A DNA stretch of 32,616 nucleotides, from positions 1 to 32,616 of the forward strand of contig MPNB01000038.1 in the NCBI GenBank assembly GCA_002238805.1. Direction: 5' to 3'. Each line of letters opens with the position of its first letter. The stretch's first letter is position 1. The notes under the pieces are model-generated. The model saw only the letters and a list, made by a program, of their open reading frames with translations. It made no database searches and was not told the origin of the DNA. Below, in pieces: positions 9,703 to 27,147 of the stretch. Made by a program: the position numbers and the translations under genes. The stretch is from Rhodothermaceae bacterium bin80. GTDB lineage: Bacteria > Bacteroidota > Rhodothermia > Rhodothermales > Bin80.

Positions 9703-10872
9703 ATGAACAATGCATCTAATCTTAGTGAAGAGGGCCCCCCGAGGCGGCTGGCATTGGTGCTGGCAGGTGGTGGTGCACGATCGGCCTATCAGGCTGGCGT
9801 TGTGCATTTCATGCAGGAATTGGTCCCGGAAATTACGTTCCCGATCATTACGGGAGTTTCTGCCGGGGCAATCAATGCTGCATTTCTTGCAGGGCATCCT
9901 AACCCGGGAGGTACAGAAGCCTTGTTACACTGTTGGCAGAATATCAATCAGGATAAGGTCTACTTGCCCGAGTCCAGTGTAAGTTTGTTTCGGCGCATCC
10001 TGGGGCGTATACGGTTCGGCAATACCGTGATTCGTGTGGAAGAAGGCGAAGCACTTCTCAACACACAACCGCTGCGTCGGTATTTGTCTGGGCAGCTACC
10101 TGCTGCCCCAGACGGCACATTGCCGCAGATTCGTAAGAACCTCGCCAGCGGAAAATTATTATCGGTTTGTATTACGACAACCAGCTTCACCACAGGTCAG
10201 TCAGTGAGCTGGGTACAGGGGCGTAACATCGAAATGTGGCATCGTCCGAACCGCATAGCACATAAGACTGAAATCACACTCGATCACGTGATGGCCTCTT
10301 CGGCTTTGCCGCTGTTATTTCCTGCCGTAAAGCTTGGCGAAGCGTGGTATGGGGACGGTGGTATTCGTGTGATTGCTCCTCTCGCGCCGGCATTGCACTT
10401 GGGAGCAACGGACATCATCTGTATTTCACCCAAATACCCACGCTCCCGGGAGGAAGCAGGCGAGCCAGCGATTATCGGATATCCGCCAGCAGCACAGGTA
10501 ATGGGTATTATGCTGAATGCCATTTTTTTGGATGCTTTTGATCATGACGTACGAGTGGCCGAGAGGATAACCAAATTAGTCAGGCATACGCCGCATGCCG
10601 AACGAAATGGAATGCGTCCTGTTAACATCCTTCTGATTCAACCATCCAAGGACATCGGTAGGCTGGCAAGAGGACTGGAGGTTAGGACGGAGGGTGTCCT
10701 ACGGTTGCTTACGCGAGGGCTCGGAAGCGGGGATACCCTGAGTCCAGACTGGCTCAGTGTGATGTTGTTTGATCCAGAGTTCATTGGGCGTGTGCTGGAG
10801 CTGGGTTACGAAGATGGCAAGCGGCAATCTGCTGCCATAGAAACATTCCTGGAGGAAGCCATCAATGCATAA
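9703..10872 (+). CDS. Patatin-like phospholipase
   Basis: Patatin-domain enzymes hydrolyse acyl esters of lipids with a Ser-Asp dyad. The 389-residue protein has the oxyanion loop GGGARS (22-27), the nucleophile elbow GVSAG with S53, and the DGG motif with D218, so it should be active. No signal peptide is apparent, which suggests a cytoplasmic or membrane-peripheral location. An AGGAG (9698-9702) touches the ATG with no spacer, so initiation at 9703 is unusual. No other in-frame start precedes the oxyanion loop. Its last codons overlap the next gene by 8 bases (ATGCATAA), which couples it to the DUF5686-type outer-membrane protein. Confidence 0.9.
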   Translation: MNNASNLSEEGPPRRLALVLAGGGARSAYQAGVVHFMQELVPEITFPIITGVSAGAINAAFLAGHPNPGGTEALLHCWQNINQDKVYLPESSVSLFRRILGRIRFGNTVIRVEEGEALLNTQPLRRYLSGQLPAAPDGTLPQIRKNLASGKLLSVCITTTSFTTGQSVSWVQGRNIEMWHRPNRIAHKTEITLDHVMASSALPLLFPAVKLGEAWYGDGGIRVIAPLAPALHLGATDIICISPKYPRSREEAGEPAIIGYPPAAQVMGIMLNAIFLDAFDHDVRVAERITKLVRHTPHAERNGMRPVNILLIQPSKDIGRLARGLEVRTEGVLRLLTRGLGSGDTLSPDWLSVMLFDPEFIGRVLELGYEDGKRQSAAIETFLEEAINA

Positions 10873-13243
10873 ACAACGTATCGGCAGAACATTGGGTCTG
10901 ATCATGGTTCTGTGTTTGGCATGGTCACCGGAGATCAAAGCACAGATTCTACGTGGCCGTGTTGTTGATGCCAGCACTAATGAAACGCTCCCCGCGGCGA
11001 CGGTGCAGATCGCAGGTACCTACAAAGGGACGATTACAAACAGTGAGGGGGTCTACGAAATAGCAGTGGATGATCTACCGGTTGATCTTGTGGTGCGGTT
11101 CATCGGCTTCCGAACCGATACGCTTACTGCCCATACCGAAACTCCGCTGGAATTTCGGTTGGAGCCCGTGGTCATGGAGATGAGGCAGATGGTAGTGACA
11201 GATGAAGATCCAGCTGTATCAATCATGCGCGAGGTGATTGAGCGCAAAAAAATTTGGCACAGGGAGCTGAGTACATTTGAAGTTCAGGCATATGCACGGT
11301 ATACGTTTTCCAATGACTCCGGCATTGTTGCTATTGTTGAATCTGCAGCCACGGCATGGTGGGATAAGGATCGGGGAATTCGTGAGGAGATAACTGGAAC
11401 GCGGAACACCGGGAATGTGCCTTTTGGAGATGGAATGCCTGCGGCACTGACCATGGTGAATTTGTACAATGACGACGTGGAAGTTAGCGGCCATACACTC
11501 ATTGGTGTCACGCATCCGGATGCGCTAGGTAAGTATGTATTCACGCTGGAAGGGATGCGCAGTGTCGATGATCTACTCATCTACGATATTGCCGTTGAGC
11601 CAAAGTATAGACAGACAAGCGCTTTCGTAGGCACAGTGTCCGTCGTGGATGGTGTCTTTGCTCTTATTGAAGCCAGGTTACGCCCAGGGCCGGCCTTTTT
11701 CTTTCCTTTCCCAATCCGGAGATATGAGACCACCTACCTGCAGCAGTTTTCCAACTACGGTGGCGATATCTGGCTGCCTGTGGATTTGCGTTCGAAGGCC
11801 ATTGTAGAAATTTCCTTCGGACCACTGTTGAGTATTCCAACTGTTTTCGTCGATCAGGTGTCTCGCTTCACGGATTACCAGTTGAATATTGCACTGGCGG
11901 ACAGCCTGTTCGAGGATGATGATAGGCTGCATGTTGATTCATTAGCGGTAGCATCTGGCGAAGGATTCCAACGTGAAGGGGTTGTGGTTCCGCTCAATCC
12001 CGAAGAAACAATAGCCTATGCATCCATAGATAGTACTCACTTGCTTAGGGAAGCCTACGAGCCGCGCGGACCTTTGGGACGTGCGCTGAGCAGGAGAGCC
12101 GAAATGGAAGAGCGACGCTCATCCATGGACAAGGTCTTTGGTTTTTTTACCGACATTGGGGTTACGCCGCGTCTGTGGTACAACCGGGTAGATGCTTTCC
12201 ACGGAGGTGTAGGATACGGCAAAGAATTCTATCGCGAAGAATCCGATCGAACACTGGCAATAGAAGTGGGTGCAGGTTTGAGCACTGGGCAGAAAGGGGC
12301 TGCACAGGTTTCGTATGATGGAGCTGTTCGCTGGGAGAAAGATTGGTTCATGGGCGCAGGTTACCGTTCTGAAAACACATTCACCTATCAGTCCAGCAAC
12401 AAAAACAGATTGAGTAACAGTAGTTTGATGCTCCTTGGGCAAGAAGACTACTTTGACTACTACCGACGGCAGGGGATATCAATCACGGGGGGCTATCGCA
12501 TGCAAGGGACTCGGGGCACTATATCGGCTACGTATCTGCATGAAATTCATTCACCGTTGACCGGTAGTTTCAGCTATGACTTGTTAGGTAGGCGTGAACT
12601 CCAGCGGCCAAATGTATTGGTTCCGGAGGGCGAAATGCGGACGTTCACGGTCAAGCTTAATTTTGGCCGCCCCCCGGTGTTACTAATGGGTCCATCGAAG
12701 CATCTAGCTCTCAGCGCTGAATTCTCAATGCCGCAGTCGGATTTCGTTTTTCGTCGGTACTATTTGAAAGCAGGTGGGCGCGTGATTACATTTTTACGCA
12801 GACGTTTTATACCGGCAACCCTTGATTACGGTATTTCGGTGGGTCTGGCTTCCGATGGCGGTCGGACTTTACCACTGCAGCGTTTTTTCATTGTCGAGGG
12901 AGGAACCACGGTCTATCATTGGGATGGTTCATTACATACCCTTCGGGGACTCCCTTATCAAGGTAGTGGAATAGTTTTTGGATACTGGGAGCACAACTTT
13001 CGTACGCTGCCCTTCGAGCTGCTGGGCCTTGCATCCATTGCTGAGAGGGGTTACAACGTATCGGTTTTCGGTGGGCATGCTTTTGTTCGAGGGGCGGGGG
13101 GATTACAGCGTCGCTGGAGTCACCATAATGAGTTAGGGTTATCATTGAGCGGAATATTTGGCTTAGGGCGCGTGGATTTCGCCTATCACATTGAGGGAAA
13201 GCGCTTCTTATACCCGACGTTTGGTCTAGCACGTATCTTTTGA
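10865..13243 (+). CDS. Outer-membrane protein with carboxypeptidase-regulatory-like domain and DUF5686-like region (paralogue 1)
   Basis: The 792-residue protein has a signal peptide (about 1-27, ending KAQ). Next comes a carboxypeptidase D regulatory-like beta domain (about 30-110: GRVVDASTNETLPAATV, then IGFRTD). The segment EDPAVSIMREVIERKK near 118-133 marks DUF5686-type proteins. The C-terminal half is rich in alternating, aromatic beta strands and ends in F, consistent with an outer-membrane barrel. The family is typical of Bacteroidota; its function is not established. It overlaps the patatin gene by 8 bases. Its 3' end (13155-13243) is part of a direct repeat found again at 22623, and a full paralogue lies at 22724. 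Confidence 0.8.
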   Translation: MHKQRIGRTLGLIMVLCLAWSPEIKAQILRGRVVDASTNETLPAATVQIAGTYKGTITNSEGVYEIAVDDLPVDLVVRFIGFRTDTLTAHTETPLEFRLEPVVMEMRQMVVTDEDPAVSIMREVIERKKIWHRELSTFEVQAYARYTFSNDSGIVAIVESAATAWWDKDRGIREEITGTRNTGNVPFGDGMPAALTMVNLYNDDVEVSGHTLIGVTHPDALGKYVFTLEGMRSVDDLLIYDIAVEPKYRQTSAFVGTVSVVDGVFALIEARLRPGPAFFFPFPIRRYETTYLQQFSNYGGDIWLPVDLRSKAIVEISFGPLLSIPTVFVDQVSRFTDYQLNIALADSLFEDDDRLHVDSLAVASGEGFQREGVVVPLNPEETIAYASIDSTHLLREAYEPRGPLGRALSRRAEMEERRSSMDKVFGFFTDIGVTPRLWYNRVDAFHGGVGYGKEFYREESDRTLAIEVGAGLSTGQKGAAQVSYDGAVRWEKDWFMGAGYRSENTFTYQSSNKNRLSNSSLMLLGQEDYFDYYRRQGISITGGYRMQGTRGTISATYLHEIHSPLTGSFSYDLLGRRELQRPNVLVPEGEMRTFTVKLNFGRPPVLLMGPSKHLALSAEFSMPQSDFVFRRYYLKAGGRVITFLRRRFIPATLDYGISVGLASDGGRTLPLQRFFIVEGGTTVYHWDGSLHTLRGLPYQGSGIVFGYWEHNFRTLPFELLGLASIAERGYNVSVFGGHAFVRGAGGLQRRWSHHNELGLSLSGIFGLGRVDFAYHIEGKRFLYPTFGLARIF

Positions 13244-13274
13244 TTGGTGCAAGGAATGCCCGCCTGCTCTCGAT
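13155..13274 (+). repeat. Direct repeat copy 1 (end of DUF5686 paralogue 1 plus start of a lost paralogue)
   Basis: These 120 bp match 22623-22742 without gaps (constant offset 9468) with 17 mismatches by my count, about 86% identity. An identical core of 35 bases spans 13210-13244. The copy covers the last 28 codons of the DUF5686 gene, its stop, and an ATG-led stretch at 13255 equivalent to the first six codons of paralogue 2 (MPACSR against MPVCSR). That stretch runs into a stop 12 codons on. Confidence 0.9.
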
Positions 13275-13417
13275 GGGTGGGCAAATTGATCTGAATACAC
13301 AGCCCCCTAAATAGCGAGGATGGAAGGAATGTGGGGTTATAGTTTTATCAAGTGCGTAGTTTAGTTGTTACAAGTGCACTTCCCTGAGTCCCCACTAAAA
13401 TTGATGCATCATCTAAA
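13275..13417. other. Gap before the squalene synthase-like gene
   Basis: No gene, clear promoter or hairpin is visible. This stretch contains the left junction of the block inserted between DUF5686 paralogues, immediately after the direct repeat. Confidence 0.3.
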
Positions 13418-14479
13418 CTGGATTCGCAAATTGGCAGTTCAATCAACTTAAAAGAAGATATTACTTACCAAACGGACATCCTAAACGATGTCTCGCGAAC
13501 GTTTGCATTGACCATTCCCCAGTTACCTGATCCGCTGGGAGTGGTGGTGGGTAATGCCTATTTACTCTGCAGGATTTCAGATACAATTGAGGATGAAGAG
13601 GCGCTCTCGGCGCTACAAAAACGTGAGTTTTATGAGCGTTGGATCAGCGTTGTTCAAGGCAGTCACGACGCTCATGAATTTGCACAAGATCTCAGTAGTC
13701 TACTCAATCTTTCGGCAACCATTCACGAGCAGGATCTTATCGTCAATACACCCAGAGTCATCAGAATCACCCAGAGTTTTTCAGAGTCTCAGCAGCAAAT
13801 ACTCCAGCGCTGTGTAAATATCATGGCCGATGGCATGGCTAAATTCCAAGAAGGCGCAACCCTAGAAGGGTCAAGTGACCTTGAGCATTTCAACAACTAC
13901 TGCTACTACGTTGCGGGAGTTGTAGGGGAAATGTTGACAGAACTTTTCTGTGATTACTCCGACGAGATCGATGCGAGAAAAGAAGAGCTCTTTGCACTGG
14001 CTTCTTCTTTTGGGCAAGGTCTTCAAATGACGAATATTCTTAAAGACATGTGGGAAGATCATAAGCGTGGCGTATGCTGGTTGCCGCGAAATATCTTTCT
14101 TCACTACGACTTTGATCTGAAGAGTTTATCTCGAGAGAAGATTGATCCAAGATTTATTCAGGGTTTGAACACGCTCATTGGAATTACAAAGCATCACCTC
14201 AATAATGCTCTAAAATATATTCTTCTGATCCCCTCACACGAAACTGGAATCCGTCGTTTTTGCTTATGGGCACTCGGGATGGCCCTTCCAACTTTGCGAC
14301 GCATTTACAATACGCCTACATTCAAAAGTGGTCAGGAAGTCAAAATTTCACGGCGTACTGTCAAAGCAGTTGTTGCCTCCACCAGCGGGTTGGCACGCTT
14401 CGATTTAGCTTTGAAAGCTCTTTTCTTTTGGCTTGGCCGCAACCTCCCCCTCGTCTCACCTCACTCAGACTTCTCATGA
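13418..14479 (+). CDS. Squalene/phytoene synthase family protein (start codon unresolved)
   Basis: Family members condense two prenyl diphosphates head to head. Two Asp-rich Mg-binding motifs are present: DTIEDE at about 13580 and DMWEDHKRG at about 14046. The conserved N-terminal string SRTFALTIPQLP begins before the first canonical start (TTG 13508), so the true start lies upstream. The frame is open back to 13388 (stop TGA 13385-13387) but contains only ATT, ATC or CTG codons. I placed the start at CTG 13418 as a compromise. Either a rare start is used or the 5' end was lost or altered at insertion. The gene is more AT-rich than its neighbours and faces the oxygenase-like gene tail to tail. 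Squalene versus phytoene product cannot be decided. Confidence 0.8.
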   Translation: MDSQIGSSINLKEDITYQTDILNDVSRTFALTIPQLPDPLGVVVGNAYLLCRISDTIEDEEALSALQKREFYERWISVVQGSHDAHEFAQDLSSLLNLSATIHEQDLIVNTPRVIRITQSFSESQQQILQRCVNIMADGMAKFQEGATLEGSSDLEHFNNYCYYVAGVVGEMLTELFCDYSDEIDARKEELFALASSFGQGLQMTNILKDMWEDHKRGVCWLPRNIFLHYDFDLKSLSREKIDPRFIQGLNTLIGITKHHLNNALKYILLIPSHETGIRRFCLWALGMALPTLRRIYNTPTFKSGQEVKISRRTVKAVVASTSGLARFDLALKALFFWLGRNLPLVSPHSDFS

Positions 14480-14709
14480 AGACGGAGGATCGAAGAATTA
14501 ATCAAACTTGGGTTAGCGCGTCACCAACACTTGGTAGGGGGGTCACTAGCAAGCACGTTGAGGGTGTTCCAGATCATCGAAGTGACCGGCGGGTGTCTCC
14601 CGAGGCGTCCGCCAGATCTCCTGCACCAACTTCATCAAGGCGTTGTACCCCATGACGGCCCCACACGCCAGAACCGACAGCCAGAGCGCGAGACTCCCAC
14701 GAGGACGGC

Positions 14710-15882
14710 TTACCAATGCGAGGATTTATCGGCGTGCACATGGTCGGGTATGTCGTAGCGCAGGCCTCCCGCGTTTTCGTACATCGACGCACCGAAGGCC
14801 GCCGCCAGTCCGTGGTCGCTTGGCCGCAGGAGTTTGCCGACCGTGTTGTTCAGGCGGAACTTGAGCAGCGCGAGCCGCATCTTGAGCATTCCATGCCCTG
14901 GGATCTTCAGCTGGTCCGCGAGGTCCTCGCCGACCAGCATGCGGGAGACAGGGTAGATGGTCCTCTTGATCATCTTCGTCCGCTCGGCCGGATCCGCGAT
15001 CCCCGCGACCAGGGGCGCGGACCTGATGAGCGCATGGGTCATGATCACAGCGCTGTCGCGGGGTGCCGGCTCGCAGGCAGACCCGATGGAGAACCACCTC
15101 AGAGCATCTTCTTCGTCGGTGTAGAGGATGTCGTCGGGAACGCCCATGAGATGTCCGGCGTAGCGCCATACGGCGCAGAAGCTCTCCCGCTCCTCCCTAG
15201 AATAGATCGCGCCCAAGGTTTCCGAGTGCTTCAGTGTCCGCGCGGAGAAACAGGCGCTCGCATAGCCCATGTGGGCGGCACTGATCGGTGTCCCGTAGCT
15301 ATTGAAATCCCATTCCGGGGACTGGCTTAGCAGATACCGGACCTGCGCATGGACTAACCGAATTCGGACCGACAGCTTCCAACCGTCGCCGTCCCGTTGC
15401 ATCCCGCCCGGCCAGAATATCTCCACCTGGTGCCGGTTGTTCTGTCTAAGTCGCCTGACGCCATATTCGAAGATGCGCCCCGTCTGGACGAAGGACTCGC
15501 TGATTAGCGTTGAGAAGCCGTCAATCAGTGTCCCGGCAACGAACGCAGCGAAGATGTTGACGACATTAGTCAGGAAGACACGGGAGCCCAGCCGGAAGAC
15601 CTCATGGTCGAGCCAAGGCGGCTCAGGTTCGGCGAAAACATCGCGTAGCGACTGCGGCGCCTTGCAAAAAATGCTCTCGTTCTGATTCATGCCGGCCTTG
15701 ATGAACCGCGACGCCTCCCCTCGCGACAGCGAGCTAAGGTCCCTTGTCGCCGCGTCCGCCAGGGGATCGCCGATCCGGGTGTGCCGGACGTAGATGTCGG
15801 CGAGCCTCTTGTCGATCGCAGCAGCTCTGGCATGGCCTTCGATATACGCAGAAGGGACTCCGTTCAACGTGCCTTCGGGCAT
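14710..15882 (-). CDS. Oxygenase of the MpaB / DUF2236 family (rubber-oxygenase-like)
   Basis: The 390-residue protein resembles the DUF2236 catalytic domain shared by ER-bound MpaB oxygenase and the latex-clearing protein. A helical core contains RIRLVHAQVR (about 173-182), whose His and Arg are typical family positions near the heme. It is followed by GTPISAAHMGYASACFS and EERESFCAVWRYAGHLMGV, all in family order. Known relatives use a b-type heme to cleave or oxidise isoprenoid chains, which makes the neighbouring squalene/phytoene synthase suggestive. No signal peptide is seen. The gene is visibly more GC-rich than everything around it, suggesting transfer. Start ATG 15882 gives a length within the family range. 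The substrate is unknown. Confidence 0.7.
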   Translation of the reverse strand: MPEGTLNGVPSAYIEGHARAAAIDKRLADIYVRHTRIGDPLADAATRDLSSLSRGEASRFIKAGMNQNESIFCKAPQSLRDVFAEPEPPWLDHEVFRLGSRVFLTNVVNIFAAFVAGTLIDGFSTLISESFVQTGRIFEYGVRRLRQNNRHQVEIFWPGGMQRDGDGWKLSVRIRLVHAQVRYLLSQSPEWDFNSYGTPISAAHMGYASACFSARTLKHSETLGAIYSREERESFCAVWRYAGHLMGVPDDILYTDEEDALRWFSIGSACEPAPRDSAVIMTHALIRSAPLVAGIADPAERTKMIKRTIYPVSRMLVGEDLADQLKIPGHGMLKMRLALLKFRLNNTVGKLLRPSDHGLAAAFGASMYENAGGLRYDIPDHVHADKSSHW

Positions 15883-16525
15883 TGGTTCTCCGGGGGATTA
15901 TGTAGTGTCGGCCATAAAATACCTATTTTAGCCGAGTCAAGGGCGTCATGGCCATGGTTTGCGTTTGTCTGAAGCATCAATTCGAAGGGGTAGTGGCTTG
16001 GTCTCGGCGTATTTGAGTTGGCTCTGTGTATTCAGGCAAGGAATAAATAGCCCGAATAAAGGCCCCAATTTACGGGAAGTCCCGGGAATGATGCCCAAAT
16101 CATCTCCGAATTACCCAGATGCAGCGCAATATTCGCCAGAATAAGCTCCGAGGTTAAGAGGGTCCCCAGACGCCAAAACCAGACCATATGGGCCGAAATA
16201 CGGCCAAAAGCCACCAAAAAACCCTAAAGTAACATGCTAAACCTACGAATATTTATATTTCCGGGCAAGCACTAGGTAATGCTTGCCAGAAAATGATTTT
16301 GGTTGTGGGATTATACTGATTATTCTTACCAATCCGATCATGGTATAAAGCTCCAAGTGTTGACATTCCCCATATTATCGTTATTTTACGCTTGAGGTAA
16401 AGGTGAACAAGGGCTAAAATTGAACGCCCGTCTGGATCTCCTGTCTTCAGCGGCGATTGCGGTTCTCCAGTTCCAAGTCACTAGATTGTTCTGCGAGCAT
16501 ATGCATAGAGGAGGTTTTTACTTGT
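15883..16525. other. Long intergenic region upstream of the efflux operon
   Basis: About 640 bp without a supported gene. It contains a perfect 8-bp hairpin (ggcaagca 16264-16271 with tgcttgcc 16280-16287, 8-base loop) with no T-tract. A TTGACA lies at 16360-16365 with a weak -10-like ATTTTA 17 bases on (16383-16388). The hairpin could be an operator for the efflux operon, but no regulator gene is adjacent. Confidence 0.35.
16360..16388 (+). promoter_or_regulatory. Possible promoter of the RND efflux operon
   Basis: A consensus-like TTGACA at 16360-16365 is followed after 17 bases by ATTTTA. The hexamer spacing is right but the -10 match is poor, and FCB-group promoters often differ from this consensus. 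Confidence 0.25.
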
Positions 16526-16642
16526 ATGGCAGCGCACGACCTGCATTTATTGGCACCAGCCCCCCATCAGTTAGACGCTATCAGATTTCTTCAACAGCGA
16601 GGATTTGTACGGATACTTGCACTGCTGAAACGCTGGAGGTAG
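16526..16642 (+). CDS. Possible 38-residue leader ORF ahead of the efflux operon
   Basis: A small frame starts at ATG 16526, 11 bases after AGGAGG (16509-16514), and ends TAG at 16640-16642. Its last codons (TGG AGG TAG) form a Shine-Dalgarno for an ATG at 16645 that is in frame with the efflux lipoprotein. This looks like translational coupling. The peptide is basic at its C-terminus and matches no family I know. It could equally be chance. Confidence 0.3.
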   Translation: MAAHDLHLLAPAPHQLDAIRFLQQRGFVRILALLKRWR

Positions 16643-16722
16643 GTATGGTACTCAGAGACGTGGTCAATTCGATTTCCTCATCTCCCTCACGAACGGGAGA
16701 TACATTTATTGGTAGAGCAAAC

Positions 16723-18198
16723 ATGTCCCGACGCATGTGTTCTTTTCTTGCGATGGGTTTGCTTGCCGTAGTGATTCTTTCCGGGTGTTCAATGGCTCCA
16801 CACTTGGAGGATCCGGTGCAGGTGCTTCCAGAACAATTTGAGATTGCTACGCTTGCCGAAAGGGGGGCGCAGCATTACTGGTGGCACGGCTTTGGAGATC
16901 CGTATCTGGACCAGTTAGTCGATTCTGTCATTGCACGTAATCTGGATCTGCGCGTTGCTGTGGCTCGAGTGGCGGAACTACAAAACCAATTTCGTATGGT
17001 CCGGGCCGAGCAGTTTCCGGCAATGGAACTGGCTGCACGAAGAGATCAGCAGGATACGCCCTCCAATACGGGCATAGGAGGGCAGTTAGGGGATCGTCTC
17101 AATATACCCGGGGGGCCCGACTTTCCCGATCGTTTCGAATTTACCACCTATAGTGCCTCCCTTGGCTTTACCTATGAGATAGACTTTTGGGGTCGAGTGC
17201 GGGGAGCGAAACGGGCAGCGCTGCGGGAGTTTTTTGCTACTCAATCCGATGTTCGTACGATACTCTTGGGTGTCATCGGTGAGACGGTTGCTACATATTT
17301 TGAGATTGCCGCCCGTCAGCGCATCCTTGCGCTGACGCGCGAAAACGTGGATATTCTCACGGAACGTGCCCAGATCATGTCTGATCGATATGAACGAGGT
17401 TTAGCCTCCTCCCTGGAATATTACGCCGCCCAGCAGGAGCTTGAGGCTACAAAAGCGGATATGCCCCTGATCGAAATCCAGCTGGAGGCGGCCCAGGGGC
17501 GACTCGCCCTACTTCTAGGGCACTACCGAGTCCCGATGGATTCCATGCTGGTGCCGGAAAGTGCCTACACGTATGCTTTAGAGGAAATACCGAGTGGTCT
17601 GCCTTCAGAGTTACTGCAGGAAAGGCCGGATGTGGTTGCCGCATTTCAGCGTTTAGAAGCCGCTCGTGAGCGCATCGGAGTAGCACGTGCTGCTCAGTTT
17701 CCCAGTTTTTCATTGACTGGTGCAGCCGGCACACAAAGTAGCGTGCTGTCCGATATCGTACAGACCGGTCAGAAATTTTGGCTTTTTAGCTCCGGTCTGA
17801 CTGCTCCTATATTCAATGCCGGTAGGATCCGGGCCAACATCAGGGTAGCCTGGGCTCAGTACGAGCAATTGTCCGCTCAATATGAGAAGACCGTGCTCAT
17901 GGCCTTCAGGGATGTGGAAGCCGCACTGATTAACTATGGTAAGTTAAAGGAGCGGCATGCTTCCCTTTTAGCCGCCAGTGCCTCTGCTATTGAGAGGGTT
18001 CGTATTCAAGAACTTCGCTATTCTCATGGTACAAGCGACTATTTGGGATTTCTGGATGCCCGGCGCAATCGTACTTTGACGGAAATGGCATTAACGGAAT
18101 CGCATCGCGCCCTGGCAGAGGCTCGTTTAGCAGTACACAGGTCCCTTGGCGGGCTTTGGATTCATGGAGCATCACAATTTGATCATGGGACACCGTAG
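16723..18198 (+). CDS. RND efflux outer-membrane lipoprotein, TolC/NodT family
   Basis: This is the outer-membrane channel of a tripartite efflux pump. From ATG 16723 the protein (491 residues) has a lipoprotein signal with lipobox LSGC (C22). Two OEP repeats follow, recognisable by YWWHGFGDPYLDQLVD, then NLDLRVAVARV, then FWGRVRGAKRA, and in the second half ERPDVVAAFQRLEAARERIGVAR and APIFNAGRIRA. Length is normal for the family. Upstream in-frame ATG 16645 has a much better Shine-Dalgarno (GGAGG 16635-16639). It would add 26 residues before the signal, which is awkward for a lipoprotein. The adaptor gene starts 40 bases after the stop, so the three pump genes form one operon. Confidence 0.88.
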   Translation: MSRRMCSFLAMGLLAVVILSGCSMAPHLEDPVQVLPEQFEIATLAERGAQHYWWHGFGDPYLDQLVDSVIARNLDLRVAVARVAELQNQFRMVRAEQFPAMELAARRDQQDTPSNTGIGGQLGDRLNIPGGPDFPDRFEFTTYSASLGFTYEIDFWGRVRGAKRAALREFFATQSDVRTILLGVIGETVATYFEIAARQRILALTRENVDILTERAQIMSDRYERGLASSLEYYAAQQELEATKADMPLIEIQLEAAQGRLALLLGHYRVPMDSMLVPESAYTYALEEIPSGLPSELLQERPDVVAAFQRLEAARERIGVARAAQFPSFSLTGAAGTQSSVLSDIVQTGQKFWLFSSGLTAPIFNAGRIRANIRVAWAQYEQLSAQYEKTVLMAFRDVEAALINYGKLKERHASLLAASASAIERVRIQELRYSHGTSDYLGFLDARRNRTLTEMALTESHRALAEARLAVHRSLGGLWIHGASQFDHGTP

Positions 18199-18237
18199 AG
18201 TTTCGTTGATGTCACTGTTCAAGTATATTTCGCGATC

Positions 18238-19416
18238 ATGAAGCGAGCAAGACTCGTATTTGCTGTCGGTACTGTCGTCGTTGTTGCATGCGTCATAGTT
18301 CTGGCCATGATGTTGCCGAGGCCACGCAATAGTTCTCCAGAAACTACGCCGAATCAGGCCGTTCCTATTGTCACCACGGTTGTACCTAAGTCGCAAGATG
18401 GACGTGTCAAGATACTGGGGAATGGAACGGTTCGACCGCTGCAGGAAGTGACCCTTGTAGCTGAAGTTGGGGGAAAGATCACCTGGGTGGCAGAGGAGTT
18501 CGTTACTGGCGGCTCTTTCCGTCAGGGTCAAGAGATGCTCGGGATTGATTCGACTGATTACGCCAACGCGGTAATCGTTGCCCGGGCCGAGGTAGTTCAG
18601 CGACAGTTCGATTTGCTCAGGGCCGAAGAAGAGATGGCAATTTCAAAGCAGGAATGGAGGCTTTTGGAGAGCCGAACAGGTGTGCATAGGCCGGTCGACA
18701 GCACTGAGCTCGGGAGTCTTGTCTTCAAGGAGCCGCATTGGAAGGTTGCGGTTGCACAGCTTCAGAGTGCTCGGGCACGCCTTCGCGATGCTGAGATGCG
18801 TCTGAGCAGGACAAGAGTCGTTGCACCGTATAATGGACGATTACGAACCAAGGGTGCAGGGCTTGGGCAGTTTGTTGGGCCAGGGCATATGATCGGTTCT
18901 TATTACGGGACGGATGCGGTCGAGATCAGCGTGTCCGTTTCAGGTCGTGATTTGACCTTGTTGGGAGACTTACTCGGTCGTGAATCCCCCTCTACACGTG
19001 CAAGACTTATTGCCCGTTATGCTGGAGCCGAGCATGAATGGATGGGGGTCGTTCATCGCACGGAAGGTGCTCTGTCTGAGTTGACGCGAACCCTGAATGT
19101 GATCGTTCGTGTGCAGAGGCCATATGAGAGGAGTAATGTGCGTCCGCCTCTTTTGGTGGGTACGTTCGTTACTGCATATCTGGAAGGCCGGCACTTTGAT
19201 CAATACTACATGTTGCCCCGCGAAGCCCTCAAGGAAGCGGGTGAGGTTTGGGTGGTTCGTGGGGGCCGCCTGTATGGGCAACCCGTTGAAGTTATTCAAG
19301 AAGTGGAGGATACCGTCTATGTTCTGAGTGGAGTCACGGAGAGGGACTCGGTCGTGACCAATATGCTGAATGTCGTAACTGACGGTATGCGCGTACGGGC
19401 TGGGGTAGAGAAGTAG
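18238..19416 (+). CDS. RND efflux periplasmic adaptor (membrane fusion protein)
   Basis: The 392-residue adaptor has an N-terminal membrane anchor (about 5-27), then a barrel/lipoyl half (GNGTVRPLQEVTLVAEVGGKI). An alpha hairpin of charged heptad-like helices follows (about 110-185), then the returning lipoyl half with the motif RVVAPYNGRL. The C-terminal beta-barrel and membrane-proximal parts complete the HlyD/AcrA pattern. It bridges the pump at 19429 and the channel at 16723. The gap to the pump gene is only 12 bases and contains GGAG, so the two are co-translated. Its substrate cannot be read from sequence. Confidence 0.9.
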   Translation: MKRARLVFAVGTVVVVACVIVLAMMLPRPRNSSPETTPNQAVPIVTTVVPKSQDGRVKILGNGTVRPLQEVTLVAEVGGKITWVAEEFVTGGSFRQGQEMLGIDSTDYANAVIVARAEVVQRQFDLLRAEEEMAISKQEWRLLESRTGVHRPVDSTELGSLVFKEPHWKVAVAQLQSARARLRDAEMRLSRTRVVAPYNGRLRTKGAGLGQFVGPGHMIGSYYGTDAVEISVSVSGRDLTLLGDLLGRESPSTRARLIARYAGAEHEWMGVVHRTEGALSELTRTLNVIVRVQRPYERSNVRPPLLVGTFVTAYLEGRHFDQYYMLPREALKEAGEVWVVRGGRLYGQPVEVIQEVEDTVYVLSGVTERDSVVTNMLNVVTDGMRVRAGVEK

Positions 19417-19428
19417 GAGCTTACCGAT

Positions 19429-22400
19429 ATGAAAAAAGCCATTGCATATATGGCACAGAACAGTGTCGCAGCGAACCTGCTGATGTTGCTGATTCTGTTC
19501 CTCGGACTCCTGAACGTGTCTAGGATTCCGCAGGAGATTTTTCAGGAGGCCAGTCTTGATGCCGTCGAAATTCGGACGGATTATCTCGGTGCTTCCCCGG
19601 AAGAAGTAGAAGACGGAGTCGTGCGACGCATTGAAGAGGCTATTGAAGGGATTGATGGCATTGATCAAATCTCGTCTGTTGCAGCAGAAAATGTAGGAGT
19701 GGTGACCGCAAGCCTCAAGTTGGGCGCAGATGTTGGTAAGGCGCTCAATGATATCAAGAGTGGTGTGGATCGCATCAATACATTTCCCGCCGAAGTGGAG
19801 CGCCCGGTTGTGCGGGAGTTGACCAACCGCAGAAATGTGCTCCAGATCGCCATTTACGGGGATGCCAGTGAGCACACATTCAAGGCGCTGGCGGAACAGG
19901 TCAAGGATGACCTGACAGCGCTTGACGAAATTTCCTTTGTGCGCTTGACGGGTGTGCGAGACTACGAGATATCAATTGAAGTCTCCGAGAATACGTTGGC
20001 TGCCTATGGACTACGTCTATCTGACATAGCGGCTGCTGTAGGACGTGGGAGTCTGGATCTGCCTGGAGGTAGCCTAGAGACCCGAAGTGAAGAGATTCTG
20101 GTTCGTTCAAAAGGACAGAGGTACACTGCAAGAGATTTTGAGGAGATAATTGTTCTGGCAAGTCCGACGGGTGCAAGTGTTCGCCTAAGTGATCTCGCCA
20201 CGGTAACAGATGGATTTAAGGAGGATAACTTGATTGCGCGATTTGGAGGACAGCCGGCGGTGTTGGTCTCGGTTTCCCGTTCCGGGGACGAGCGGGTTCC
20301 GGATATCGCTGAAGCCACCAAAGCGTACTTGACTGACCTCCGCTCTCAGTTGCCTGAGGGAATCTCCGTGGATACGTGGCGGAACGAACACTATTACCTC
20401 GAAAGCCGTCTCAATCTGTTGATTAGGAATGGAATTGCGGGTTTCATACTGGTGACTTTGGCTCTTGTCCTCTCTATGAATCTTCAATTGGCATTATGGA
20501 CTTCCTTTGGACTGTTGGTGTGCTTTATCGGCACGTTTTCGGTCATGGCCTTCCTTGGAGTCTCCATTGATATGACCTCTTTGTTTGCCTTCATCATTGC
20601 AATTGGTATTGTGGTTGATGATGCGATTGTCATCGGAGAAAGCATATTCAGAGAGCAGGAGCGTGGGGTCCCCCCGATGCGAGCTGCGGTTCAAGGGGCC
20701 CAGCGTCTTTGCATTCCCGTGACCTTTGCAGTCTTAACGACCATTGCTGCATTTTCGCCAATGCTGTTTGTCCCGGGGTCCATTGGCAAGTTAATGGCCT
20801 CTATCCCGACGGTTGCGATCACAGTTCTGGTCTTTTCTCTGATCGAATCACTCTTCATCCTGCCTGCGCATCTATCGCACATGAAAAGGAAGAAGAGTTC
20901 TGGCAGGATAGTTCGACGACTGAATCTCATTCAGTCTGCTACGACGCGGGCCTTGGAACGCTTCACACATGGTCCGTTAGATCGCGTACTGCGGTTTACC
21001 ACCCGCCGTTACATTCTAGTGCTGGTCAGTTCTGTGATCCTGATTGGTTTGTCTCTCACAATTGTGGGTAGTGGATTGATCCAGTTTGTTTTTCTTCCTG
21101 AGATTGAAGGCGAAGTTGTAACGGCTCGCATCGAAATGCCGCCAGGCACTACAGCTGAACGGACGCAACAGATTGCCGAATTGCTGGAAGCACAGGGTCA
21201 TGAGGCTGCTGCCGAATTACAAGCCAGTCTCCCAGAGAATCATTCGCCTGTGGTAACGAATACGATGACCGTGGTCGGTGACCAGCCCTCTCTTATGTTG
21301 GAGCCCATGTCGGCCGATCAACATCTCATTGTCCAGCCCCACCTGGGCGAGGTCAGTTTTGAACTGACAAGTGCCGAGACACGGAAGTTTCCTGCACTCA
21401 GGTTCGAGGAGGTATGGCGGGATAAAGTGGGCGAAATTCCTGGTGTAAGCTCCCTTGTATTCCAAGCCTCACTTATCTCTCTTGGAAGTAGCATCCGGGC
21501 TGAACTGACCGCGTCTACTCCGCAGGCATTGGAGGAGGCAGCGGTACGCTTCCGGGATGAACTCACGAGTATTGCGGGGGTCTCCAATATTGACGACGAT
21601 CGAGACCGAGGGAAACGTGAGGTTCAGTTAGAACTACTTCCAGAGTCACGCTCTCTTGGTCTGACGTTCGAAGATATGGCACAGCAGGTGCGCAATGCCT
21701 TTTTTGGTGCTGAAGCTTTGCGCATTCAAAGAGGAAGAGATGACGTTCGCGTGATGACTCGTTTGCCGGAGGAGGAACGCAACAGCCCAGAGGACCTGAA
21801 GCGCCTCCGTATCCGTACGCCCGCCGGAGCTGAAGTCCCTCTCAGCGAAGTTGCCGAAGTGAGCTTTGGTACTGGTCCGGCCAGTATTTATCGGCGTGAC
21901 CGTCGGCGTGTGATCACGATATCTGCAGATGTAAACGAAGAAGAGACCACATTAAACAAAGTCTTGGACCGTTTGGAATCAACAATCATCCCGGAGATGC
22001 AGGGGAAAATTCCGGGATTCCGCGTGAGTTTCGAAGGCGAGCAGCGCCAGCAAGCGGATGCTATGGATGCGCTTACCAGAGGTTTTATTATTGCCTTGTT
22101 TGTGATGTATGCACTTTTGGCAATTCCTTTTCGTTCCTATGTTCAACCATTTATCATCCTAGCCATAGTTCCATTCGGATTTGTTGGCGCTCTGATTGGA
22201 CATATTTTTATGGGTCTGAGCCTGAGTACGCTCAGCCTGTGGGGAATTGTTGCGCTAAGCGGAATTGTAATTAATGATTCGCTGGTGCTGATTGATTACA
22301 TTAACAAGAGGAGTCGGGCGGGGATGTCTATGGAGGAGGCAATTTGGGAAGGGGGTAAAGTGCGTTTTCGCCCAATCCTGCTTACGTCAGTAACAACGTT

Positions 22401-22614
22401 CTTGGGAGTGCTCCCACTTATCCTTGAGCAGAGTACTCAGGCACAATTCCTCATTCCGATGGCGGTAAGCCTCGGTATTGGTGTGCTGTTTGCCACGGCA
22501 ATCCTGATGATGCTGGTGCCGGCGCTCATGATGTTGCATTATCGCATGGGCTTCTTGCTTCGTCGTGGGCACTCTGACTTATCTGAAAATGAGTTCAGCA
22601 TCAGGCCAGAGTGA
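19429..22614 (+). CDS. RND efflux pump, inner-membrane transporter (AcrB/HAE-like superfamily)
   Basis: The 1061-residue protein has the RND layout: TM1 at about 13-31, a periplasmic porter domain, TM2-6 (about 335-480), a second large periplasmic loop, and TM8-12 near the end. The proton-relay acidic pair is present as D397-D398 in GIVVDDAIV within TM4. The sequence fits the AcrB/MdtB-like proton-driven branch rather than CusA metal pumps. In the C-terminal half a Ser-Gly-Ile-Val-Ile-Asn-Asp segment occupies the TM10 relay region. Third gene of the efflux operon; no regulator is encoded beside it. The drug or lipid exported is unknown. Confidence 0.92.
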   Translation: MKKAIAYMAQNSVAANLLMLLILFLGLLNVSRIPQEIFQEASLDAVEIRTDYLGASPEEVEDGVVRRIEEAIEGIDGIDQISSVAAENVGVVTASLKLGADVGKALNDIKSGVDRINTFPAEVERPVVRELTNRRNVLQIAIYGDASEHTFKALAEQVKDDLTALDEISFVRLTGVRDYEISIEVSENTLAAYGLRLSDIAAAVGRGSLDLPGGSLETRSEEILVRSKGQRYTARDFEEIIVLASPTGASVRLSDLATVTDGFKEDNLIARFGGQPAVLVSVSRSGDERVPDIAEATKAYLTDLRSQLPEGISVDTWRNEHYYLESRLNLLIRNGIAGFILVTLALVLSMNLQLALWTSFGLLVCFIGTFSVMAFLGVSIDMTSLFAFIIAIGIVVDDAIVIGESIFREQERGVPPMRAAVQGAQRLCIPVTFAVLTTIAAFSPMLFVPGSIGKLMASIPTVAITVLVFSLIESLFILPAHLSHMKRKKSSGRIVRRLNLIQSATTRALERFTHGPLDRVLRFTTRRYILVLVSSVILIGLSLTIVGSGLIQFVFLPEIEGEVVTARIEMPPGTTAERTQQIAELLEAQGHEAAAELQASLPENHSPVVTNTMTVVGDQPSLMLEPMSADQHLIVQPHLGEVSFELTSAETRKFPALRFEEVWRDKVGEIPGVSSLVFQASLISLGSSIRAELTASTPQALEEAAVRFRDELTSIAGVSNIDDDRDRGKREVQLELLPESRSLGLTFEDMAQQVRNAFFGAEALRIQRGRDDVRVMTRLPEEERNSPEDLKRLRIRTPAGAEVPLSEVAEVSFGTGPASIYRRDRRRVITISADVNEEETTLNKVLDRLESTIIPEMQGKIPGFRVSFEGEQRQQADAMDALTRGFIIALFVMYALLAIPFRSYVQPFIILAIVPFGFVGALIGHIFMGLSLSTLSLWGIVALSGIVINDSLVLIDYINKRSRAGMSMEEAIWEGGKVRFRPILLTSVTTFLGVLPLILEQSTQAQFLIPMAVSLGIGVLFATAILMMLVPALMMLHYRMGFLLRRGHSDLSENEFSIRPE

Positions 22615-22622
22615 TTGCTGCC

Positions 22623-22711
22623 TATTTGCCTTAATGCACGTGGATTTTGCCTATCATATTGAGGAAAATCGCCAACTATACCCGACGTTTGGTCTAGCAC
22701 GTATCTTTTGA
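22623..22711 (+). pseudogene. C-terminal remnant of a third DUF5686-type gene
   Basis: In the frame from 22625 the sequence encodes 28 residues ending YPTFGLARIF and a TGA at 22709-22711. These match the C-terminus of the gene at 10865 in 22 of 28 positions, with several silent third-base changes. It directly follows the RND pump stop (22612-22614) with no 5' part, so it is the tail of a paralogue whose body has been lost. Confidence 0.85.
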
Positions 22712-22742
22712 TTTTCGCAAGGAATGCCTGTCTGCTCTCGAT
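22623..22742 (+). repeat. Direct repeat copy 2
   Basis: Second copy of the 120-bp repeat at 13155-13274. It includes the paralogue tail fragment and the ATG plus first six codons of the following intact DUF5686 gene. The two copies bound a 9.35-kb block. Confidence 0.9.
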
Positions 22743-25078
22743 TGCCAGAGGCACACTCCGGGCCGTTAGGCAGGCAGTCGATCCTGCGGTGGTTGCTGGC
22801 TGGTTTGAGCGTTGTCGTTATCCAGGTGTGCATGCAGCAGGCATTGGGGCAGGTGCTTGTTACAGGGTCCGTGCGGGATTCTGTCACGCGACTGCCACTA
22901 ATTTCGGCACATGTTGTTCTGGATGGTGCTGTTCAGGGTACGATCACAAATCGGGATGGTGCTTTCGAGCTCACGCTTCCTGGTTTGCCCGCCACTCTGA
23001 TTTTTCGGCACATCGGCTATAATCCTGTGCGGGTAACCCTGGGGCCGGATGATTCACGAGTCATTAACGTGAATCTAGAACCAGCGGTTATTCCTTTGCC
23101 TGAAGTACTGGTAACAGGAGATAATTTAGCCGCCGGTATCATGGAGCAGGTCATTCGCCGCAAGGTTGCCCGTCGAGTCCATCTGGAATCCTACAGTGCT
23201 CTTATGTATTCCAGAATAACTTTGCGGCGCCGCGACAAAATCGTCCTGATAAGTGAAGCCGTTCTTGATCGATTTGTCACCAGTCAGGCCGGAACCCGGG
23301 ATATCATACGGTCTATGCGTTCGACGTCTGATTTTTATGAACAGCTGGGTCTAACCCCAGCACCTCAGGATTTTTCGTCGGATCATGTGCAGATAAACGG
23401 GTTGACATTTTTCGGGCCCACACACCCAGATGCGCTGGATCATTACAATTTTACACTTGCGGGGCGTCGCCCCTGGGGTGATCAACAGCTCTACGATATA
23501 TACATTGCTCCAAAAAACAATCAGGAAGCCGCACTGATAGGACGAATTTCTGTGCTGGATGGTGTTTATGCGCTTGTAGAGGTCGATTTAAGACCTGCTT
23601 CTCACGTGATTTTTCCCCCTGATACCCGGGATTGGAGGGTAGCTTATCGTCAGAGTTTTGCCCAGGCAGATTCATTTTGGCTGCCCATAGACCTTCGTCT
23701 GGAAGGCCGCATTCATGTGGAGCCGGAAGGCGAGGCTACCAGCCCAACTACGGTGCGGCAAGTTGCCAGACTGATGAACTATCAGATCAACCAGACTGTA
23801 CCCGCAGCGCTATTCGCTCGTCGAGAGCAGTTACAGGTGGATTCGATTTCCGTCTTTCGGGATGATCTGTTTTTGATGGGATTGGATATGGTTGCCTTGA
23901 CGGTCCAGGAATTGGAGGTGATTGATGACCTGCTCCGTGGACGACCACTAACCCTGCGTCAGGCATTACCGGCTACAGCCTCGGTCCGCGGTGCAGAAAT
24001 GGAGGCACGCAGCTTTCACCTGGGTGATCCGCCCCAATTTGTTTGGCCGCTCATCGGAGGTTTTGCACCATGGCTGCGCTATAATCGCGTGGATGGTACC
24101 CTCGTGGGAGTCGGTAAGGCATTTCCCATAGGAGAGCGCGCAGAATTGGCTGCCCGTATTGGAAAATCATTGGGATATGGTCGTACGCGCGTGGCTGCTG
24201 CGCTGAGCAATCAACTGACGAACGTCCTGCAAACTTCCGTGATATTTGAGCGGGATATGCAACCGCAAAATGGCACAATGATTCACACCGAGGCCACAAA
24301 CTCGTTGTCAGCGAGGTTGTTGGCCCGGGATTACTTCGACTGGTATTGGGCCACGAGGGTTCGCTTGAACGCAAGTTATGAGGCGCATGGGATCAGGGCA
24401 AGGGTTTCCGGGATGTATGCCACTATCGATTCTGTTCAAACCCAGGTGAGGAGTCCGTGGCCGCATCAACGGGAGTTTCCGAACAATTATTTGATCACGC
24501 CGGGGCACCATAAGTCCTTCGAACTCAGGGTTGCTACCGGTAGCGACTGGCAGCCGTATCGCATAGATCCCCAGCAAAGGGTTGAAGTTAGGGTTGAGTA
24601 TGGCGACGCTCCTCGAAGCCGTCGGTATTTGAAGGCAACCCTGTTTACGGATGGGTACATACGTACGCTGATGCGTCGTCGCCCGCAGTCTGCCGGAATG
24701 TCAGTACGTGTCTTGGCGGGATTTGCAACACTCAAAGCTCCCATTGAGCAATGGCATGTGGCAGAGGGCAGCATGGGTCCGATTGGAACACTCGGTACAC
24801 TCCGCACCGTCCGTAACCGTCGTTTAATTGGGCGTCATATGGTGGGAATATATTGGGAGCACGATTTTCGCAGTTTACCATTTGAGATGTTGCGTATCAG
24901 GCCACTTGTAGATCAAAAGGTCAGCATGCGATTTGGAGCCGCGCATGTGTATGTCGATGATAGATGGACCCATGAAATCACTTTGAGTATTGCAAGATTT
25001 CCATTACGTGTAGATCTTAGCCGCAGAATAAGACAACCGGGACTATTCGTTAGCATAGGTTTGACTGGGCGTCGTTAG
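22724..25078 (+). CDS. Outer-membrane protein with carboxypeptidase-regulatory-like domain and DUF5686-like region (paralogue 2)
   Basis: The 784-residue protein is a divergent paralogue of the gene at 10865. It has a signal peptide with a long n-region (hydrophobic core about 22-38, ending ALGQ), then a regulatory-like beta domain (GSVRDSVTRLPLISAHV to HIGYNPVRV). A DUF5686-type central part shares FFGPTHPDALDHYNFTLAG with the partner's IGVTHPDALGKYVFTLEG. The C-terminal half is beta-rich. Unlike paralogue 1 it lacks the EDPA stretch but keeps GIMEQVIRRK in the same place. ATG 22724 follows AAGGA with short spacing. It is followed after 23 bases by an RluA gene, probably in the same transcript. 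Function is unknown. Confidence 0.78.
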   Translation: MPVCSRLPEAHSGPLGRQSILRWLLAGLSVVVIQVCMQQALGQVLVTGSVRDSVTRLPLISAHVVLDGAVQGTITNRDGAFELTLPGLPATLIFRHIGYNPVRVTLGPDDSRVINVNLEPAVIPLPEVLVTGDNLAAGIMEQVIRRKVARRVHLESYSALMYSRITLRRRDKIVLISEAVLDRFVTSQAGTRDIIRSMRSTSDFYEQLGLTPAPQDFSSDHVQINGLTFFGPTHPDALDHYNFTLAGRRPWGDQQLYDIYIAPKNNQEAALIGRISVLDGVYALVEVDLRPASHVIFPPDTRDWRVAYRQSFAQADSFWLPIDLRLEGRIHVEPEGEATSPTTVRQVARLMNYQINQTVPAALFARREQLQVDSISVFRDDLFLMGLDMVALTVQELEVIDDLLRGRPLTLRQALPATASVRGAEMEARSFHLGDPPQFVWPLIGGFAPWLRYNRVDGTLVGVGKAFPIGERAELAARIGKSLGYGRTRVAAALSNQLTNVLQTSVIFERDMQPQNGTMIHTEATNSLSARLLARDYFDWYWATRVRLNASYEAHGIRARVSGMYATIDSVQTQVRSPWPHQREFPNNYLITPGHHKSFELRVATGSDWQPYRIDPQQRVEVRVEYGDAPRSRRYLKATLFTDGYIRTLMRRRPQSAGMSVRVLAGFATLKAPIEQWHVAEGSMGPIGTLGTLRTVRNRRLIGRHMVGIYWEHDFRSLPFEMLRIRPLVDQKVSMRFGAAHVYVDDRWTHEITLSIARFPLRVDLSRRIRQPGLFVSIGLTGRR

Positions 25079-25852: not shown

Positions 25853-27118
25853 CTACTCCAGTTCGCGGAGCGCACGCTGCACGCTGCGCTCGGAACCTGC
25901 GGGTGACGAAACGTCGAACGGTAGGAGGACGAGTTTCAGGCCGTCGAAGAACTGAAAGTTGCACGGACGGATGAAGGTGCTGTTTCTAGGATAGACTAGA
26001 GCCACGGTTTGACATTTGTACCGTTTCCCGTAGGCGTAGATCTGGTACAGGTCGCTGCCGTGGACATCGCTGATCGTTTTGTTTTCGTTTTCGCCGAGGT
26101 GGATCCACTTGGCGTCGAGGATGAACCGGACATTGCTGGATGGTTTGCAAAGCGAAATGTCTGGCTTCATTGCGTTGTGTCCAGAACTTGGCTGGAGCAT
26201 CCGCTCCCTAGGTCCTTGGGCGACCACCTGAAATTCGGTTTGATAGCGACGGAAACCATGGGTTACGAAGTCCTCGTAGACCTGCTCCATCGGGAAGAGT
26301 AGGGACTGATTGATGTGCCTGCCGGAATAGGTTGTGAGCCCCTGGTTGAAGAGGAAGAGTTCGACCCACTGCATGACCTCCTCGTAGTGCCGCATGCAGC
26401 GATCAATACTGTGGCTTCGCCAGTCTGCCCGTATGTTTTGCGATGTTGGTATCGCGCTGAACGCTGGCTCGAGGTCTGCGAGTAACCGTCGGTTGCGCTC
26501 TTCGCGTACAATGGGCTTGAGCCTGTCAAGGGTGGTGCGGATGAGTCGGTTGGCGGGGCGGTTGGGATTCAATTCGTCGTGTTCTACATAGAAACGAGAA
26601 CGGTCGATCAGGTTCTCGCGTAGGTGATCTCGGAAGACTATGCGACCGCGCAGGAAGGACAGATTTTCCTGGATCGTCCTATACTGTCGGCCGAGGCCGC
26701 CTCGAACCAAAAGGCCGACATTCTCTAGGAAGAGGTGGACGAAAACCTCAAGTAAAGGGAAGCGGCGTAGCGCTCGGATGGCACTGGGAGGAAGGCTCTT
26801 AGTCCTCTTCAGGCCGCCGTAGGTACGCAGCATCATCAAAAATGCCTCACGAGTCCGCTCGTGGCTCGTGCACGAAGACTCGCCAAGGTCAATCTTGGGC
26901 AGGATCTCGACGACCGTACCACGTTTTGTAGTGATCACGCCGACGTAGTTGCTCGCATGGAGGCGGCCATTCCAGCCAAAGTGAAAGACTGGGGGGTACG
27001 GATGTTTTTTAGTGAAGGCTATTAGATCATTCAGATCGTGCTTGTCGAGTACTGGGAGCTCCTCGTGTTCCCGAATGGTGTAGACACCAGGCATAGGTTC
27101 AAAACTGACCGTCAGCAA
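25853..27118 (-). CDS. mcrC: McrC-like nuclease subunit of a modification-dependent restriction system
   Basis: McrC partners the AAA GTPase McrB, stimulates its NTP hydrolysis and supplies the nuclease. The 421-residue protein has the N-terminal McrC region (VEILPKID at 70-77). A C-terminal PD-(D/E)xK nuclease core follows, with D320 in MKPDISL and D335/K337 in FILDAKW, so it should be catalytically competent. The gene lies 29 bases downstream of mcrB on the same strand, forming a two-gene operon. The predicted role is cleavage of foreign DNA carrying modified bases. Confidence 0.9.
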   Translation of the reverse strand: MLTVSFEPMPGVYTIREHEELPVLDKHDLNDLIAFTKKHPYPPVFHFGWNGRLHASNYVGVITTKRGTVVEILPKIDLGESSCTSHERTREAFLMMLRTYGGLKRTKSLPPSAIRALRRFPLLEVFVHLFLENVGLLVRGGLGRQYRTIQENLSFLRGRIVFRDHLRENLIDRSRFYVEHDELNPNRPANRLIRTTLDRLKPIVREERNRRLLADLEPAFSAIPTSQNIRADWRSHSIDRCMRHYEEVMQWVELFLFNQGLTTYSGRHINQSLLFPMEQVYEDFVTHGFRRYQTEFQVVAQGPRERMLQPSSGHNAMKPDISLCKPSSNVRFILDAKWIHLGENENKTISDVHGSDLYQIYAYGKRYKCQTVALVYPRNSTFIRPCNFQFFDGLKLVLLPFDVSSPAGSERSVQRALRELE

Positions 27119-27147
27119 GATCGGAATTCTTGTCCATCGGCTGGTTG

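Follow-up and report, generated by a model that had tools for sequence, protein, structure and literature searches.

The window analysed here, 32,616 nucleotides of contig MPNB01000038.1 of Rhodothermaceae bacterium bin80, holds two genes for DUF5686-type proteins, here called A and B, with a 9.35-kb block lying between them. The block is a mosaic composed of a squalene-synthase-like gene, an MpaB-type oxygenase gene, the relic of an insertion sequence (IS) and an exporter built from an outer membrane efflux protein (OEP), a periplasmic adaptor (HlyD) and an inner-membrane pump (RND). On both sides it is bounded by a copy of the junction between A and B. The history we favour, with a probability of roughly two in three, starts from an ancestor that had only these two genes; a mosaic cassette was then inserted at the A-B junction in this lineage, leaving the junction on both sides of the block and its orphan halves decaying. 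A preliminary description had instead concluded, from the sequence of the window alone, that at least three, and probably four, tandem paralogues must once have existed here. Comparison with relatives overturns this history inferred from one sequence: finding a gene tail and the following start at both ends of a block is no proof that an array was lost.

The direct repeats are two copies of the A-B junction

Self-comparison of the window yielded a single direct-repeat family of at least 40 bp, whose two copies (Table 1) extend over 120 bp, align without gaps and are identical at 103 of 120 positions (85.8%), in agreement with the value of about 86% first reported. The repeat has only two copies in the genome, both of them an A-B junction; a search of all 4.08 Mb found no third. 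The longest exact run that they share measures 37 bp (13209–13245 in copy 1, 22677–22713 in copy 2). The composition proposed earlier, the tail of one DUF5686 gene followed by the start codons of the next, holds for both copies as A tail plus B start, and the reading frames agree that copy 1 belongs to an intact gene whose follower is lost except for its start and copy 2 to an orphan tail with an intact follower. Specifically, copy 1 comprises the in-frame 3′ end of the intact gene A and an orphan B start (ATG at 13256, 12 codons, then a stop). Its homology to B stops near 13272, where the repeat meets a 26-bp IS21-family end (13276–13301). Copy 2 comprises an orphan A tail of ~30 codons, still open and starting 8 bp past the RND stop codon, and the functional start of the intact gene B. 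The two proteins are distant, old paralogues that share only ~28–30% identity, and therefore represent one A-B pair rather than several recent duplicates.

The ancestral locus is a two-gene tandem

The locus was compared between this genome (G000), nine congeners (G001–G009) and two other members of the family (G011 and G012). A directly precedes B, uninterrupted by the block, in eight congeners (G002–G009), in G012 and in G011; wherever a relative that was checked retains both genes, they are neighbours. In the ninth congener, G001, gene A is intact and B has shrunk to a 73-residue match (G001:C94:2063–2281), so that B is dispensable in one congener. The surrounding order is kept: S46 peptidase, patatin, A, B, pseudouridine synthase. 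Orthologues in G004, G008 and G009 are 84–85% identical for A and 85–86% for B, and in both G008 and G009 12 bp separate the stop codon of A from the ATG of B. Joining the flanks of the window in silico inside the 37-bp run produces a full-length A, a full-length B and a 12-bp gap between them. Because A and B adjoin without the block in the relatives, the ancestral locus was a two-gene tandem, with A directly before B, and not an array of three or four.

The block does lie between two tandem DUF5686 genes, as the preliminary description held, but the broken array of three or more is not supported: the relatives have two genes at this locus, and besides the 105-bp A tail of copy 2, this genome contains no extra DUF5686 copy or fragment. 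Arrays of more than two genes at the locus are absent from G002–G009 and G012, larger ones having been seen only outside the genus. The order DUF5686, synthase, oxygenase, RND, DUF5686 is not conserved in the relatives. G011, which belongs to a different genus of the same family, has three tandem DUF5686-type genes (G011:C1:1676255–1682306).

Duplication and decay of the junction

The two copies, at 85.8% identity, are closer to each other than to the junctions of G008 (83.3 and 81.7%), G004 (81.4 and 79.2%) and G009 (79.7 and 78.3%). When the changes in the copies were polarised with these three genomes as outgroups, 11 of the 15 polarised changes fell in the orphan halves, with 8 of them in the copy-2 A tail and 3 in the copy-1 B start, and the functional halves accounted for the other 4. 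Since the copies are mutually closest and 11 of 15 changes lie in the orphan halves, the A-B junction was duplicated once, in this lineage, and its non-functional halves then decayed. A single duplication of the junction suffices to account for all the pieces; given the A-B pairs of the relatives, three or four paralogues are not needed, and a transient A-B-A-B arrangement is possible but not required. Change in the orphan halves amounts to ~0.09 per site, versus ~0.2 per lineage for four-fold sites in the flanking genes; as a rough guide, these few sites would place the event mid-way since the split from G008.

Arrival of the block and competing explanations

The block encodes no recombinase, and transposon target sites are shorter than the ~120-bp duplication. 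Homologous recombination or break repair is the likeliest route. IS21 target duplications amount to a few bases, not ~120, and unlike a simple transposon, the block carries an IS21-type end at its left edge only. An IS-rich fragment would have been joined at the A-B junction either through one crossover with a junction-bearing molecule or by repair of a long staggered break, and the left side would later have been trimmed beside an IS21 element. After the insertion, the B start on the left and the A tail on the right would have been useless and free to decay.

Several points weigh against this history. The bias of 11 to 4 toward orphan halves is small (one-sided binomial ~0.06), no donor of the cargo was found among 114 genomes of the order, and the block has no recombinase or transposase to explain a duplication of ~120 bp. 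The assembly, derived from a metagenome, consists of 192 contigs, and the cargo does not come from one source, which makes arrival in a single step uncertain. The main rival on mechanism, and the strongest version of the preliminary reading, is a transient A-B-A-B duplication, in which the A-B pair was duplicated in tandem (A1 B1 A2 B2) and B1 and A2 were almost entirely lost, either when the block entered or through a deletion adjacent to IS21. The B remnant stops exactly at the IS21 end, the outcome expected of a deletion next to an IS, and tandem DUF5686 expansions occur in the family, for example the three genes of G011. However, no congener has more than two genes at the locus, two independent deletions would be needed to leave ~30 bp of B1 and ~90 bp of A2, and no further remains of either exist in the genome; we consider this course unlikely, though far from negligible. 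A chimera created during assembly is very improbable. Although IS copies like that of the block also occur at many contig ends, the orphan A tail and orphan B start have mutations of their own, which a misjoin would not create, and no exact match of at least 40 bases links the IS relic to any of the copies compared.

Origin of the cargo genes

The MpaB gene is foreign and was imported. Its GC content at third codon positions is 0.78, versus 0.46–0.53 for the other block genes and the flanks and 0.51–0.66 for its homologues. Its donor was not found, with identities of at most 49% in the 114 genomes of the order and 395 of the phylum and a best match of ~32% on plasmids.

For the synthase and the exporter, distances to G008 at four-fold sites are 0.76–0.92, as opposed to 0.26–0.41 for the flanks, an approximately twofold excess shared by all four genes (synthase, OEP, HlyD and RND). 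In the trees of the pump and of OEP, this genome branches outside all other congeners, and approximately unbiased (AU) tests reject its grouping with G004, G008 and G009 for the pump (p = 7.5e-7) and OEP (8e-4), but not for the synthase (0.07) or HlyD (0.16); the flanking genes support the same grouping at 99–100. On the strength of these trees, import of the whole block had seemed proven. However, OEP, HlyD and RND (on contigs G007:C40, G008:C34 and G009:C105) differ by 0.34–0.42 at four-fold sites between G007 and G008, versus 1.13–1.45 for the flanks, and exporters so much closer than their flanks point to gene exchange between the lineages of the relatives. Such exchange explains at least part of the tree discordance, and the claim of import was therefore withdrawn for the synthase and the exporter; the copies found here may be the native ones, moved.

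We give about even odds to relocation, by which native synthase and exporter genes changed place within this genome and ended up at the A-B junction, MpaB alone having been imported. Only one close copy of each gene is present in the genome, the pump tree fits the flanks if the ancestor of G004, G008 and G009 took the copy of the G007 lineage, and the pump distance from this genome to G003 and G007 (0.91–1.15) is near the level of vertical descent; yet there is no demonstrable vacated site, as the synthase site of the G004/G008/G009 type is empty here and was maybe never occupied. That both were imported along with the block, from a relative not yet sampled, falls just short of an even chance. 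It accounts for pump and OEP trees that reject a grouping supported by the flanks and for the twofold excess in all four genes, whereas the mutual exchange of the relatives, which did happen, yields the same pattern, the AU tests for the synthase and HlyD do not reject the grouping, and a donor is absent from the genomes of the order. Among named genomes, the relatives with an 81–83% identical pump are metagenome-assembled genomes of Rhodothermales, Rhodothermaceae and Bacteroidota, and a search of the named genomes with the RND pump found no donor. From isolate names, we take these relatives to come mostly from sponges, and this bacterium is probably sponge-associated as well.

A gene set that wanders among relatives

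In another family of the order, a single stretch holds the synthase, the RND pump and one or two MpaB genes (G029, G039 and G054; loci L102, L100 and L101); in G039 the stretch also holds an FAD oxidoreductase, a sulfotransferase and glycosyltransferases. These stretches represent a candidate isoprenoid gene cluster. MpaB also adjoins the exporter in G003, G005, G009, G011 and G012. Found side by side elsewhere, the synthase, MpaB and RND genes look like a functional set, and their linkage suggests an isoprenoid that is oxidised and exported: most likely, the cargo is predicted to make, oxidise and export a C30 isoprenoid.

The synthase is present in all 10 genomes of the genus, this one included, in seven neighbourhoods (L103–L108, L114–L116 and the window itself): one shared by G004, G008 and G009, one by G003 and G005, and one each in G007, G006, G002, G001 and this genome. 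Neighbourhoods were judged by shared adjacent open reading frames (ORFs), with contig ends limiting the resolution. A vacant synthase site at G000:C23 was considered as a deletion scar and rejected, the synthase lying elsewhere in every other lineage. The gene set is clustered in two Rhodothermales families, yet scattered and repeatedly exchanged within one genus. The event described here is an ordinary kind of genome rearrangement, and it is the cargo genes that wander unusually often among related species. We regard as improbable the broader proposition of a cassette that recurrently relocates and is exchanged among mostly sponge-associated Rhodothermales although it encodes no recombinase, relying on IS21 activity and on recombination at duplicated gene junctions, and that could still leave the present site cleanly through its repeats.

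Possible excision and comparison with known systems

In silico, one crossover between the two repeat copies would precisely regenerate both A and B. RecA-dependent exchange in E. coli needs about 23–27 bp in the RecBC pathway or 44–90 bp in the RecF pathway (PMC12074656). Judged from sequence, excision of the block through repeat-repeat exchange would be possible; the exact run measures 37 bp, and the 14% mismatch would lower the rate.

As in genomic islands, direct repeats flank the block and relatives have an uninterrupted site, whereas the integrase or other recombinase of integrative elements is missing. Integrase-less segments between direct repeats include the E. coli H47 genomic island (PMC5426353) and the S. 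Typhimurium wzy locus, whose 113-bp direct repeats are identical (PMC12074656). The block resembles both in having repeats of similar length and no recombinase of its own, and in that an exchange would leave one copy. It differs from them in that the H47 and wzy repeats are reported to recombine, whereas those described here are 86% alike, with a 37-bp exact run, and derive from a duplicated gene junction.

Contents of the block

The features of the locus are listed in Table 1. The synthase has the full domain of squalene and phytoene synthases (PF00494) and is nearest to the squalene synthase model; against NCBIfam squal_synth (TIGR01559) it scores 133 bits, below the equivalog cut-off of 287. 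Its start is uncertain, as the frame contains no ATG, GTG or TTG before 13508; homology extends back to at least 13472, and an ATG at 13404 is out of frame. The oxygenase belongs to the MpaB/Lcp family (PF09995, DUF2236) and aligns to the rubber oxygenase 5o1m around the VHA motif, whose histidine, the only residue compared, is aligned and invariant among homologues. In LcpK30, the haem-binding residues are R164, T168 and H198 (PMC6311187). The block protein differs from this family in being ~40–49% identical to its nearest homologues and in adjoining a squalene-type synthase and an RND exporter. The OEP, adaptor and pump genes are adjacent and in one orientation, as in tripartite RND efflux systems. 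None of the six long ORFs of the block, which are the synthase, oxygenase and exporter genes, matched a recombinase, integrase or transposase, and the segments 14480–14712, 16270–16425 and 22560–22640 match nothing else among the sequences compared.

Table 1. Features of the A-B locus and the block in the window.
Feature	Position	Strand	Domain or model match
DUF5686 gene A, 792 aa, CarboxypepD_reg N-terminus, intact	10865–13243	+	Pfam PF18939 (72 bits), PF13715
Direct repeat copy 1: functional A end and orphan B start	13155–13274	+	
26-bp IS21-family end, tip at 13301, at left edge of block; rest of element gone	13276–13301	+	
Squalene-synthase-like gene (SQS_PSY), start uncertain	13388–14479	+	PF00494 (186 bits)
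MpaB/Lcp-type oxygenase gene	14710–15882	-	PF09995 (70.6 bits; curated cut-off 23)
Multicopy insertion element relic, both ends kept, transposase region gone	15898–16278		
12-bp IS21-type tip inside the IS relic, inverted relative to 13276–13301	16024–16035	-	Exact match
Outer membrane efflux protein, OEP/NodT type	16420–18198	+	PF02321; TIGR01845 (300.8; cut-off 210)
Periplasmic adaptor, HlyD/RND_mfp	18238–19416	+	PF13437; TIGR01730 (116; cut-off 95)
RND inner-membrane pump, AcrB family	19429–22614	+	PF00873 (538 bits)
Direct repeat copy 2: orphan A tail and functional B start	22623–22742	+	
DUF5686 gene B, 784 aa, intact	22724–25078	+	Pfam PF18939 (56 bits)

Insertion-sequence remains and neighbouring genes

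The genome contains 16 ends resembling the IS21-type one that borders the block on the left (8 forward and 8 reverse; a reversed-pattern control gave 0). Copies of this end adjoin IstB (PF01695), and one adjoins an IstA-like gene. The terminal motif is thus that shared by the IS21 family, but only remnants exist at the block: neither istA nor istB is found in the window, and no IS21-type end was found at the right edge of the block. For the 12-bp tip, ~0.1 matches with at most one mismatch would be expected in the window. The genome holds dozens of copies of the element that left the relic, and many of them sit at contig ends; a fuller copy lies at G000:C12 740–2654.

In G007, an intact IS21 IstB gene adjoins the synthase. 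A second MpaB gene, of the type found in the genus, survives in this genome as two remnants (G000:C180:4168–4552 and G000:C186:9425–9866), of which the C180 piece is most similar to G007 (86.5% DNA identity) and directly borders an IS21-type end. Genes of a McrBC-type restriction system lie at 25853–29748, just past the pseudouridine synthase, and G008 has a second, broken piece of a McrC gene near the locus.

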